DNA from: Longimicrobium sp.
Lineage (GTDB): Bacteria; Gemmatimonadota; Gemmatimonadetes; Longimicrobiales; Longimicrobiaceae
Assembly: GCA_030446945.1 (NCBI GenBank)
Contig: JAUJMI010000052.1
Span: 2,651 to 12,957, forward strand
DNA: 10,307 bases
Reading direction: 5' to 3'
Made by a program: the position numbers and the translations under genes. This document shows positions 3,714 to 6,494 of the stretch, in pieces. Within the stretch, counting starts at the first letter, position 1. Each line of letters opens with the position of its first letter. Below the pieces are notes generated by a model that had not been told where the DNA came from, ran no database searches, and saw nothing but the letters and a program-made list of their open reading frames with translations.

Positions 3714-4649
3714 TTACCACAGCCGCAGCTTGTCCAGATCCGCGCGGAGCTTCAGCAGGGCCTGGTCTTTTTGCTTCGCCTCCAACATCACGTCGTAGGG
3801 GAGGGGGCCCGTTTCGCGGAGGAACCAGGCGAACTCCCAGGGATTCACGAAGTCGGCGTGCTGCGAGAGGAGGGGCGGGACGGCGACCTCCTTTTTGCCG
3901 CGCACGATGGTGCGCAGGTCCATCTTCGGGGAGGAGAAGTGCACCTTGGGCTGGATCCCGCGCCAGGTGCCGAGCGCCTTGCGAGCCGCTTCGCCCACGC
4001 TGAGCCCGCCGGGGTTCAAGTTGTGGTGCTGGTGGTCGAATACGACCGGGACGCCGGTGGCCTCGTGGGCGCGCAGGCAGTCGGCCATGGAGTAGACGGT
4101 CTCGTCGTTTTCGATCACCAGGCGGCGGCGGGCGGACTCGGAGAGGCGGGCGAAGTTGTCCACGAAGCGCGCGACCGCCGAGCTCTTGTCGCCGTACGCG
4201 CCGCCCAGGTGCAGCACGACGACGGCCTCGGGGCCCTGCTCCATCGCGTCGAGGAGCTCGGCCTGGGCGTTGACGTCGGCGATGCCCTTGGCATTGATCG
4301 CGGGGTCCTGCGCGGAGAGGAGGACGTACTGCGACGGGTGCAGCGAGAGGCGGATCCCGAAGTCGCGTGCGCGGCGCCCCAGCTCCGCCAGCTCGCGGGC
4401 GCACTCGCGCACCTGCGCGTGGAACTGCGGCATGTCCGGGTGCGTGGAGTACGGGACGAAGTCGGAGGAGATCCGGTACATGCGGATGTCCATCTCGTCC
4501 AGGTAGTCCAGGATCGGGTGGAGGTAGTCGATGGAGACGCGCACGTGCGGGTTGGACTGCCACTTCCGCGCATCGTTGCTCTTGAGCCCCTCGCGCCCCA
4601 CCACCTTCACCGCGAACCCCAGCCGCCGCGGCCATTCCCGCTTCGCCAT
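3714..4649 (-). CDS. uvsE: UV DNA damage endonuclease UvsE/UVDE
   Basis: This 311-residue protein has the full UVDE signature. The enzyme nicks DNA 5' to UV photoproducts and some other lesions, starting an excision repair route independent of UvrABC. It is a TIM-barrel metal enzyme. The N-terminus has RLGFAVKVVG, followed by RMYRISSDFVPY, LSLHPSQYVLLS, VVLHLGGAYGDK, VIENDE, PVVFDHQHHN, KVHFSS and MLEAKQKD. Likely metal ligands by comparison with the Thermus enzyme are H104, H147, E180, D205, H208, H237 and E290. K235, two residues before H237, corresponds to the carboxylated lysine. All are present, so the enzyme should be active. The ATG at 4649 fits the conserved N-terminus; only a weak purine-rich GGGGCGACGG precedes it. 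It lies downstream of the PYP gene on the same strand, separated by 194 bases of repeats. Confidence 0.96.
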   Translation of the reverse strand: MAKREWPRRLGFAVKVVGREGLKSNDARKWQSNPHVRVSIDYLHPILDYLDEMDIRMYRISSDFVPYSTHPDMPQFHAQVRECARELAELGRRARDFGIRLSLHPSQYVLLSAQDPAINAKGIADVNAQAELLDAMEQGPEAVVVLHLGGAYGDKSSAVARFVDNFARLSESARRRLVIENDETVYSMADCLRAHEATGVPVVFDHQHHNLNPGGLSVGEAARKALGTWRGIQPKVHFSSPKMDLRTIVRGKKEVAVPPLLSQHADFVNPWEFAWFLRETGPLPYDVMLEAKQKDQALLKLRADLDKLRLW

Positions 4650-4675
4650 CCGCCGTCGCCCCGGTGTGAATGTGC

Positions 4676-4710
4676 CGCGGGGCGGGCGCCGGTCCGGCGC
4701 CCGCCCCGCG
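4676..4710. repeat. 35-bp GC palindrome with 17-bp perfect arms
   Basis: CGCGGGGCGGGCGCCGG (4676-4692) and its exact complement (4694-4710) flank a single central T. It sits 26 bases upstream of the uvsE start codon and would form a very stable hairpin in the RNA. No T tract follows on the minus strand, so it does not look like a normal intrinsic terminator. It could be a transcript-stabilising or attenuating structure between the PYP gene and uvsE. Confidence 0.75.
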
Positions 4711-4742
4711 CGGTAGGGTCAAGAAGTTTGCCGCTGGAAGGA

Positions 4743-4781
4743 AGTGCCCAGTGCCCAGTGCCGAGTGCCGAGTGCTCAGTG
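4743..4781. repeat. Heptanucleotide tandem repeat (AGTGCCC/G/TC)
   Basis: Five successive 7-base units (AGTGCCC, AGTGCCC, AGTGCCG, AGTGCCG, AGTGCTC) and a partial AGTG are seen. The repeat is non-coding and lies between the PYP and uvsE genes. It resembles in style the short tandemly repeated repetitive sequences known from other bacteria. Confidence 0.8.
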
Positions 4782-4788
4782 AACACCG

Positions 4789-4808
4789 CACTCACGCACT
4801 CACGCACT
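4789..4808. repeat. Octanucleotide tandem repeat (CACTCACG)
   Basis: Two full CACTCACG units plus CACT are present. The unit carries the core GCACT, complementary to the AGTGC of the adjacent heptad repeat. The two arrays together can therefore form a long imperfect hairpin in the transcript downstream of the PYP gene. Confidence 0.75.
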
Positions 4809-4843
4809 TCCCCACCGATCTCTCCCCCGCGCCGATCCTCCGC

Positions 4844-5224
4844 CTACGGCCGCTGCACCAGCACCCAGACCGATTCCGTGCTCACGCTGTAGAACATCGA
4901 GATCACCACGTCCTTCTGCCGGCCGTCCTTGAAGCGGAACTTGTAGTTGAAGGCCGTGTTGAGGCTCTTCGCGGCCACACCTTCCAGGAAGCGGCCGTGG
5001 AACTCCTGCACCTTTGTGCACGGCGCCACCTCGTCGAAGAAGTTCTTTCCGATCGCCTCTTCCTTGAGCATGCGCGCCAGGTCCGACTCCGTCTGATTGA
5101 ACTTCAGCACCACGCCGTCGCGGCTGAGCTGGATCATCCCCACCGGGAGGGTGTCGAGCTCGCTCTCGGAGAGGATGTCGGCCTGCTCCAGCAGACCCGG
5201 GGGGGACTGAACGGTGGAAAGCAT
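4844..5224 (-). CDS. pyp: Photoactive yellow protein homologue (stand-alone PAS domain)
   Basis: This 126-residue single-domain protein resembles photoactive yellow protein, a cytoplasmic blue-light sensor that binds p-coumarate through a cysteine thioester. It aligns without gaps to Halorhodospira halophila PYP (125 residues) from residue 1 to about 100, so numbering is shared. Clear matches are IGKNFF (58-63), VAPCT (66-70) with Cys69, EF at 74-75, EGVA (81-84), LNT (88-90), Y94 and F96. Glu46, which contacts the chromophore phenolate, is kept. Tyr42 is Phe, Thr50 is Ala, Arg52 is Met, and the Met100 loop is changed (FKDGRQ). The start at 5224 is set by AGGAG seven bases upstream and by the family length; the frame runs further upstream without family similarity. 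No tyrosine ammonia-lyase or coumarate ligase gene is in view, so chromophore loading is unproven. It lies upstream of uvsE and is divergent from the PRC-barrel gene. Confidence 0.9.
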   Translation of the reverse strand: MLSTVQSPPGLLEQADILSESELDTLPVGMIQLSRDGVVLKFNQTESDLARMLKEEAIGKNFFDEVAPCTKVQEFHGRFLEGVAAKSLNTAFNYKFRFKDGRQKDVVISMFYSVSTESVWVLVQRP

Positions 5225-5278: not shown

Positions 5279-5307
5279 AATGTACGTGCTTGTCTCAGGT
5301 TTGTCGA
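5279..5307 (-). promoter_or_regulatory. Candidate sigma-70-type promoter for the PYP gene
   Basis: On the minus strand, TCGACA (5307-5302) matches the -35 consensus at five of six positions. It is followed after exactly 17 bases by TACATT (5284-5279), with four of six -10 matches. It would give a leader of roughly 50 bases. The -10 box is bracketed by the short inverted repeat GCAC (5275-5278) and GTGC (5286-5289), a possible but weak operator. Confidence 0.5.
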
Positions 5308-5471: not shown

Positions 5472-6494
5472 ATGGCGAGCGAAATGGATCGGGTGGTACC
5501 GCTGGGGCAGCTGGACGACTTCAAGGTGGCCGACGGCGATCCGGACGTGCGCGGCTGGCAGGTGGTGGCCTCCGACGGGCAGACGATCGGCGAGGTGGAC
5601 GAGCTGCTGATCGACACCAACGCCATGAAGGTGCGCTACCTGGACGTCGAGGTGGAGAACGGCCTGATGGCCGAGCCCGACCGCCACGTCCTCGTCCCCA
5701 TCGGCTACGCGCGCCTGGACCGCAGCGCCGACCGCGTGATGGTGGACAACATCGCCTCCACGGATCTTCGCACCATGCCCGCCTACGACCAGTCGCCGGT
5801 GACGCGCGACTATGAGACGAGCGTGCGCAACAGCTTCCCCGGCGGCACGGCGGCTACCGAGATCGAGAGCGGCGCCGGGATGGCCGCGGCCGGCTCGCAC
5901 GACACCGACTTCTACACGCACGACTCGTTCGACGACAACCGCTTCTACGGGCGCGGGATCGAGACGGGGGCCGGCGAGCAGCGGATGACGCTCTCCGAGG
6001 AGGAGCTGGACGTCGGCACGCGGCAGGTGCGGGCGGGCGAGGTGGAGATCGACAAGCACGTCGAGACCCGCCACGTGTCCGAGAACGTGCCGGTGATGCA
6101 CGAGGAGGCGGTCGTGGAGCGCCGCCCGATCACCGACCCCATGTCGGCGCGAGGCGCCACCATCGGTGAGGACGAGACGATCCGCGTCCCGCTCACGCAG
6201 GAAGAGGTGGTCGCCGAGACGCGCACCGTCGCAAGGGAGGAGCTGGTGGTGCGCACCAACCAGGTGACCGAGACCGACACCGTCGAGGCCGACCTGCGCC
6301 GCGAGCGCGCCGATGTGCACCGCGAGGGCGAGACCCACGGCGCCGGCTACAGCGCCGGCTCCCCGGGCCTCGGCGGGACGGCCGGGAGCGGCCTGACCGA
6401 CAATCCGGGGATCGGGAACGGGAACGATAGCACGGGGCTGAACAACAGCTCCACCGACCCGCTCCGGCGCGACAACACCGGCGGCAACCTGTAG
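5472..6494 (+). CDS. PRC-barrel and DUF2382 (YsnF/AvaK) domain stress-type protein
   Basis: This soluble, acidic 340-residue protein has no signal peptide. Residues about 28-98 form a PRC-barrel (WQVVASDGQTIGEVDELLID, KVRYLDVEV, VLVPIGYARLD), a small beta-barrel also found in photosynthetic reaction centre H subunits and RimM. Residues about 100-168 are a polar linker. Residues about 171-284 are a DUF2382 domain (MTLSEEELDVGTRQVRAGEV, VPVMHEEAVVERRPI, IRVPLTQEEVVAETRTV), with its repeating charged strand pattern. The tail from about 286 is Gly/Asn/Ser rich and probably disordered. PRC-barrel plus DUF2382 proteins are widespread in bacteria and often linked with general stress; no biochemical activity is established for the family. 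It has a strong ribosome binding site and its own terminator, so it is probably monocistronic. It is divergent from the PYP gene. Confidence 0.93.
   Translation: MASEMDRVVPLGQLDDFKVADGDPDVRGWQVVASDGQTIGEVDELLIDTNAMKVRYLDVEVENGLMAEPDRHVLVPIGYARLDRSADRVMVDNIASTDLRTMPAYDQSPVTRDYETSVRNSFPGGTAATEIESGAGMAAAGSHDTDFYTHDSFDDNRFYGRGIETGAGEQRMTLSEEELDVGTRQVRAGEVEIDKHVETRHVSENVPVMHEEAVVERRPITDPMSARGATIGEDETIRVPLTQEEVVAETRTVAREELVVRTNQVTETDTVEADLRRERADVHREGETHGAGYSAGSPGLGGTAGSGLTDNPGIGNGNDSTGLNNSSTDPLRRDNTGGNL

Follow-up and report, generated by a model that had tools for sequence, protein, structure and literature searches.

A photoactive yellow protein gene directly ahead of a UV-damage endonuclease gene in Longimicrobiaceae, with CarH-type promoter repeats in part of the loci

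Photoactive yellow protein (PYP) has already been described in Gemmatimonadota (PMC9664959, PMC12826048), and the published neighbors of PYP genes are those for kinases, c-di-GMP enzymes, chemoreceptors and regulators, together with chromophore genes (PMC12826048, PMC9664959). In predicted pyp operons, tyrosine ammonia-lyase (TAL) is found in 5% and pCL in 32%, and the signaling target of PYP is described as an important gap (PMC12826048). CarH binds tandem 11-bp repeats (nnnnTnnACAn), one of them over the -35 element, and can recognize even one or two full repeats plus partial ones (PMC9304148). In the openly licensed literature, photoactive yellow protein is not linked with UV damage endonuclease or with Longimicrob, CarH is not linked with UV damage endonuclease, and CarH and photoactive yellow protein are mentioned together mainly in reviews on optogenetics and photoreceptors, judged by their titles. 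The terms Gemmatimon and CarH do co-occur in this literature, as do photoactive yellow protein and error-prone DNA polymerase; the main texts of two PYP surveys (PMC9664959, PMC12826048) do not mention DNA repair, DnaE, endonuclease or polymerase.

We analyzed a stretch of 10,307 nucleotides (the window, G000:C45:2651-12957) from a Longimicrobium sp. genome of 526 contigs that is 86% complete and contains one pyp copy, with an open reading frame of 126 codons plus a stop codon (Table 1). A sequence-only reading of this DNA had proposed a stand-alone PYP homologue, and our searches confirmed this: the protein is a 126-residue single domain with a Pfam assignment of PAS, its best NCBIfam model is TIGR02373 (photoactive yellow protein; E 7.2e-31), and 33 of the 35 matches in a PDB sequence search (E <= 1) are PYP or PYP-derived, the best with an E of 2e-24, with the other two being PAS sensors (E 0.013 and 0.89). 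The profile check which that reading had recommended returned the PYP model as the best one, but at 106.9 bits and thus below the cut-off of 143.05, which is passed by none of 395 Gemmatimonadota genomes. Since TIGR02373 reaches only about 20% of PYP homologues (PMC9664959), its cut-off defines a subset of PYPs, and missing it does not refute membership. Cys69, which serves as the criterion of PYP membership in one survey (PMC9664959), is present in the window protein. The alignment to PYP is gap-free through Cys69, with one extra residue at about position 100-105, and Glu46, IGKNFF, VAPCT, Tyr94 and Phe96 are all in place, as had been read from the sequence. With 339 homologues at E <= 1e-3, and a dN/dS of about 0.16-0.24 among three near relatives, this open reading frame is more than a chance one. 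By sequence tests suited to its own subgroup, the window protein is a member of the PYP family; our tree (116 columns, with 39 of 89 inner branches open) contains PYPs only, without a PAS outgroup, and is therefore no test of PYP against other PAS domains.

Table 1. Features at the pyp locus of the window (positions counted from the first letter of the window)
Feature	Position	Strand	Basis
uvdE, UV-damage endonuclease	3714..4649	minus, same as pyp	TIGR00629, 170.9 bits (cut-off 124.45); PF03851
Perfect 17-bp inverted repeat between pyp and uvdE; possible partial terminator or 3' stem-loop	4676..4710		sequence
pyp, single-domain PYP-family (PAS) protein, 126 aa	4844..5224	minus	open reading frame, profiles, PDB matches, alignment
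Putative -10 (TACATT), 17 bp from the -35-like TCGACA (5302-5307)	5279..5284	minus	read from sequence (predicted)
TCGACAAACCTGAGACA, at the place of the relatives' CarH-type repeats; one full repeat (TnnACA, over the -35) and one partial repeat	5291..5307	minus	upstream comparison
PRC-barrel + DUF2382 (YsnF/AvaK) protein, divergent from pyp	5473..6494	plus	profile matches

Our survey of 21 Longimicrobiaceae genomes showed that 9 contain a match to the window protein and that 14 contain uvdE. In all nine pyp-bearing genomes, uvdE is the next gene downstream of the closest pyp copy and shares its strand, the two matches being 38-251 bases apart; in the window, uvdE starts 194 bp past the pyp stop codon. 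Three further, more divergent PYP copies (two in G032 and one in G400) do not adjoin uvdE. Profile scans confirmed that photosynthesis, chemotaxis and coumarate genes are absent from the window; the description of its context as merely non-phototroph-like had overlooked both the uvdE partner and the CarH-type promoter present in relatives. The PRC-barrel neighbor scores 74.5 bits on the model for reaction-centre subunit H (cut-off 200), a match that could mislead annotators towards photosynthesis.

On the other side, 8 of the 9 pyp loci have a PRC match next to the gene. Together with those for FGGY kinase and transketolase, the PRC gene is syntenic as far as the contigs reach, so that shared descent explains much of the linkage of pyp and uvdE. 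In four genomes with uvdE but without pyp (G251, G286, G224 and G398, the last without an FGGY match), uvdE keeps its place next to PRC, and in G251 (L133) pyp and its promoter have been cleanly deleted between repeat-rich flanks, with the retained uvdE being 97% identical. Outside Longimicrobiaceae, the other Gemmatimonadota PYP regions contain no linked uvdE (tblastn, E <= 1e-6), and neither do 80 named PYP loci (E <= 1e-4), except for L141 and L142, which are themselves members of Longimicrobiaceae. We do not assert that pyp and uvdE form a plain operon, as stem-loops of unrelated sequence are present between the two genes (positions 4650-4843 of the window, and the corresponding gaps of relatives) in 8 of 9 genomes, with none in G400. 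Compared with shuffled sequences, five of these have clearly lower energy (z -2.6 to -10.2) and three slightly lower energy (z -1.5 to -1.9), and they may end transcription before uvdE.

PYP genes of a second family, Gemmatimonadaceae, are located beside a different DNA-damage gene. TIGR02373 matches (E <= 1e-8) are present in 52 of 395 Gemmatimonadota genomes; we examined the regions around all 68 of them and recovered a PYP open reading frame in 66. For Gemmatimonadaceae we counted 31 loci, one per genome, with a main-type Cys69 PYP, leaving out two long-branch copies (L101, L107), two of another subfamily (L081, L085) and the Cys69-less copies; no dnaE2 gene is present in the regions of these left-out copies. 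The error-prone polymerase gene dnaE2 is divergent from pyp and within 210 bp of it in 27 of the 31 loci, and within 4.4 kb in 30; the two proteins scanned score 1269 and 1260 bits on NF004225 versus 939. An ImuB-like gene is present within the region on the far side in 15 of 31 loci (two proteins scanned gave weak DNA polymerase IV matches, and three scanned had no Pfam match), and the far-side neighbors otherwise vary between loci. The family also contains 14 PYP paralogues with Ser or Gly at position 69 that keep Glu46 (L091-L093, L095-L100, L102-L106); six of these, placed in the tree, form one starred group, four also have Cys42, and the neighbors conserved beside them read as an SSS transporter, a NosD-like protein and PhoD.

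A box between dnaE2 and pyp, CCGAAYATANRCCGAA, was considered as a PYP operator and rejected, because it tracks dnaE2 or the ImuB-like side and not pyp. Allowing up to two mismatches, 16 of 31 loci have it in the 300 bp upstream of pyp, and 19 further sites lie elsewhere; in L066 and L084, where dnaE2 lies 3.8 and 4.4 kb from pyp, it remains beside dnaE2. An ImuB-like gene lies roughly 0.5 kb or less from pyp in nine loci, and in six of these the box is found 2.1-3.5 kb off on the ImuB-like side. Our guess is that it could be a damage box of the polymerase genes. A direct repeat between dnaE2 and pyp, CCGAATATACACCGAA (e.g., in L060 and L074), likewise tracks dnaE2 or the ImuB side and is a candidate damage box; two of its nine exact sites, which come from eight genomes, are near a radical SAM gene (L271) and a formamidopyrimidine-DNA glycosylase gene (L272).

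These comparisons bear on whether pyp and uvdE are neighbors by inheritance only, i.e., whether a single insertion placed pyp between PRC and uvdE, with no role for PYP in repair and with any operator serving uvdE and the genes behind it. The conserved PRC, FGGY kinase and transketolase flanks, the four pyp-less genomes in which uvdE is still in place, the G251 locus that lost pyp with its promoter and kept uvdE, and the promoter repeats present before uvdE in G286 and G224, which have no pyp, are all consistent with this. The Gemmatimonadaceae loci argue against it, since their PYP genes are next to another damage-tolerance gene in 27 of 31 cases while the far-side neighbors change, and a position of pyp behind a light-type operator is what would be expected of a photosensor. 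We regard neighborhood by inheritance only as less likely than not, though as a serious possibility.

At position 42 the window protein has Phe where PYP has Tyr, at 50 Ala in place of Thr, at 52 Met in place of Arg, and an Asp replaces Met100; of these positions, Tyr42 and Thr50 belong to the chromophore pocket of PYP. The motifs listed in the sequence-only reading are correct, but these four substitutions had been overlooked. We compared 121 sequences, i.e., the window protein and the best 120 of its 339 homologues, a set that leans to near relatives because only the best 120 were used. Across these 121, Cys69, Glu46, Pro68, Phe62 and the Trp equivalent to W119 are invariant and Phe96 is present in 120, whereas position 42 is Phe in 114 and Tyr in 7, position 50 is Ala in 110 and Thr in 11, Phe42 and Ala50 occur together in 108, and Arg52 occurs in none. 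In Halorhodospira halophila PYP, the Y42F substitution moves the hydrogen bond to Thr50 (PMC9664959), and this fallback partner is also absent from most of the same 121 sequences. Phe42 is found in about 9% of PYPs, and Ala50 is the consensus of the PYP family (PMC12826048). The pair is not unique to Longimicrobiaceae, as it also occurs in myxobacterial PYPs. In such a natural F42/A50 pocket, Glu46 would be the sole usual hydrogen-bond partner left of Tyr42, Glu46 and Thr50, which makes these proteins a test of chromophore tuning.

The search for lyase genes that the sequence-only reading had called for gave a negative answer. PF00221 ammonia-lyase has no match in the 86%-complete window genome (profile search), and has matches in 338 of 395 Gemmatimonadota genomes. 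We read eight of these lyases, six from pyp-bearing Longimicrobiaceae (one per genome, including one of the two matches in G180) and two from Gemmatimonadaceae; of the nine pyp-bearing genomes, the remaining three are the window genome and G399 and G400, which were outside the lyase search. All eight have Ser-His, at a place where the lyase near PYP in L217, labeled TAL in our analysis, has His-Leu. We take Ser-His to mark histidine ammonia-lyase, and therefore read these eight as histidine-type. With no PF00221 match in the window genome, and Ser-His in all eight lyases read in relatives, we see no TAL candidate among them.

This result, in which the only lyases read are of the histidine type, and the loss of both Tyr42 and Thr50, the hydroxyl partners of the chromophore, would fit a protein with the PYP fold that has given up p-coumarate and uses Cys69/Glu46 to sense a different signal, e.g., redox state or another ligand. 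We consider this unlikely, given that Cys69, Glu46, Pro68, Phe62, Phe96 and the W119-equivalent Trp are retained across the 121 sequences as described above, that Ala50 is found in characterized photoactive PYPs, and that most of the predicted pyp operons have no TAL gene (PMC12826048).

Upstream of pyp, Longimicrobiaceae genomes contain TTGACAAACATTGTACA or a related sequence, followed after about 17 bp by a -10-like hexamer. We searched the 400 bp ahead of pyp, or of uvdE in loci that lack pyp, for the exact tandem pattern TnnACA-N5-TnnACA and found it in 7 of 14 pyp/uvdE loci, always on the sense strand: in five of nine pyp loci (G180, G032, G312, G379 and G243) and in two of five pyp-less uvdE loci (G286 and G224). 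Elsewhere in the 348,214 strand-bases of these 14 regions there are no exact tandem pairs, and dinucleotide shuffles gave a mean of 0.017 loci with exact repeats, with 0 of 2000 reaching seven; as the pyp/uvdE loci share descent, 7 of 14 does not represent seven independent events. The exact repeat is absent from the window itself (G000), from G273, G400 and G399, and from the pyp-less G251, G398 and G397. Since the repeats of the window are degenerate, control in this genome may be altered or lost. The pyp promoter of G379 contains three tandem repeats, one of which includes TTGACA, like published CarH operators (PMC9304148). In the other Gemmatimonadota regions, five exact pairs occur in 1,510,582 strand-bases, none of them within 400 bp upstream of a PYP gene; in L105 an exact tandem pair is located 546 bp upstream of one.

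Similar sites are present at other genes of the same genomes. The pattern TTKACAAACNTTNTNCA has 6 sites in 12 Longimicrobiaceae genomes versus 0 for the reversed control, with five of the six at pyp or uvdE. The looser TKKACANNNNNTKNACA has 27 matches versus 14 for its reversed control (11 genomes), a weak enrichment by which single matches prove little; these matches include sites before three MerR-B12 genes and a carotenoid gene of G312. A third pattern, TTKACAARNNKTRNRCA, has 15 sites in 21 genomes versus 1 for the reversed pattern, counts that are partly circular because the pattern was written after the pyp, carH and G312 carotenoid sites had been seen. Six of the 15 are at pyp/uvdE (G243, G399, G312, G379 and G180, and G286 without pyp), three precede genes encoding MerR_1, B12-binding_2 and B12-binding domains (G312, G379, G286), two precede Caroten_synth genes (G312, G180), and four are at genes that we did not assign to a light program (the other strand of the G312 carotenoid site near a contig end, G305, G286:C141 and G400:C167). 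In G180:C840 (L310 / L305), three tandem CarH-type repeats separate a Caroten_synth gene from a divergently oriented MerR-B12 gene that is cut by the contig end.

A MerR-B12 regulator with the Wx9EH signature is also encoded in the window genome (G000:C334; MerR_1, B12-binding_2 and B12-binding). Its gene belongs to a carotenoid cluster, together with genes for a lycopene cyclase, a polyprenyl synthetase and an amine-oxidase-fold protein that we read as phytoene desaturase. In this cluster, TTGCACAAAGATTGGACG, a near site, lies between the lycopene cyclase gene (if a later Met start is used) and a divergent Pfam-less gene, toward which it is oriented. The corresponding crt-cluster intergenic region contains an exact tandem pair in G032 and near matches, placed by their flanks, in G273 and G400; the loose pattern used to look at these loci has no background count. 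One observation speaks against CarH-type control: in G243, which has operator-like repeats, only one MerR-B12 gene was found, and it is of the type beside crtB in G032. Taken together, the candidate operators at pyp/uvdE, MerR-B12 and carotenoid genes make a light regulon that includes pyp and uvdE plausible. We think it improbable that a regulator not of the CarH type binds these repeats, or that they simply reflect a strong -35 and a conserved spacer. In favor of such an alternative, each genome has two to four PF02607 matches, with several regulators and MetH-sized proteins among them, the window copy is degenerate, and the loose pattern is weakly enriched genome-wide; against it, the sequence and 11-bp spacing fit the published operator (PMC9304148), three tandem copies over the -35 included, and the sites precede MerR-B12 and carotenoid genes.

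With moderate confidence, we propose that in Longimicrobiaceae the gene of the Y42F/T50A PYP heads a small light-response module that also includes uvdE, under CarH-type control in part of the loci. The PYP family assignment, the pocket residues, the gene order and the operator-like repeats are read directly from sequence, and the context of pyp suggests that it is part of a program of sunlight protection and UV repair; the gene order and promoter pattern across Longimicrobiaceae argue strongly for this link, and the window's own promoter does so more weakly. For CarH binding, light induction, the chromophore and signaling we infer the following scheme. In the dark, a B12-loaded MerR repressor of the CarH type would block the pyp promoter, in just over half of the Longimicrobiaceae pyp loci; in the light, the repressor would be released, and pyp-uvdE, the carotenoid genes and carH itself would be expressed together. 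PYP would bind p-coumarate, supplied from outside or by some other route, on Cys69 and respond to blue light, Glu46 being the chief polar contact of the phenolate; its signal would pass on through contact with other proteins and might reach the repair response. A wider version, which is speculative and which we rate as rather improbable, is that Gemmatimonadota PYPs are a light input to the handling of UV damage, where a B12 photoreceptor switches on PYP and the UV endonuclease and PYP in turn adjusts repair (UvdE in Longimicrobiaceae, translesion synthesis by DnaE2 in Gemmatimonadaceae). We found no earlier report in the openly licensed literature of links from PYP to uvdE, dnaE2 and CarH-type promoters, and a recurrent association with UV-damage genes in two bacterial families, together with a seemingly light-controlled promoter, offers concrete and easily tested PYP outputs.

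Compared with the CarH-controlled carotenoid promoters of Thermus, Bacillus and Myxococcales (PMC9304148), the Longimicrobiaceae loci are alike in having tandem 11-bp nnnnTnnACAn repeats with one over the -35, and differ in that pyp and uvdE are located behind them and in that most positive loci have two exact repeats; the window differs further in having no exact tandem repeats. The prototype PYP of Halorhodospira halophila shares with the window protein its length, the register through Cys69, Glu46, IGKNFF, VAPCT, Tyr94 and Phe96, but the two are 38% identical and differ at Phe42, Ala50, Met52 and the Asp at 100, and the window gene has uvdE in the stead of an adjoining TAL or pCL gene. The myxobacterial PYPs (Corallococcus, Pyxidicoccus, Hyalangium, Archangium) are the best-scoring named matches outside Gemmatimonadota (49-59% identity) and share Phe42 and Ala50, with Ile at 52; their loci, unlike the window, have no uvdE. 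Among 13 neighbor proteins scanned from nine of these loci there are no repair families, with the matches being to deoxynucleoside kinase, thioesterase, WGR, GNAT, GST and amine oxidase, and with several matching nothing. The Gemmatimonadaceae PYPs beside dnaE2 differ from the window protein in having Tyr42 in 28 of 31 cases and in being divergent from dnaE2 instead of ahead of uvdE, with the intervening box following dnaE2; they resemble it in their identity of about 50% and in having a DNA-damage gene as a neighbor.
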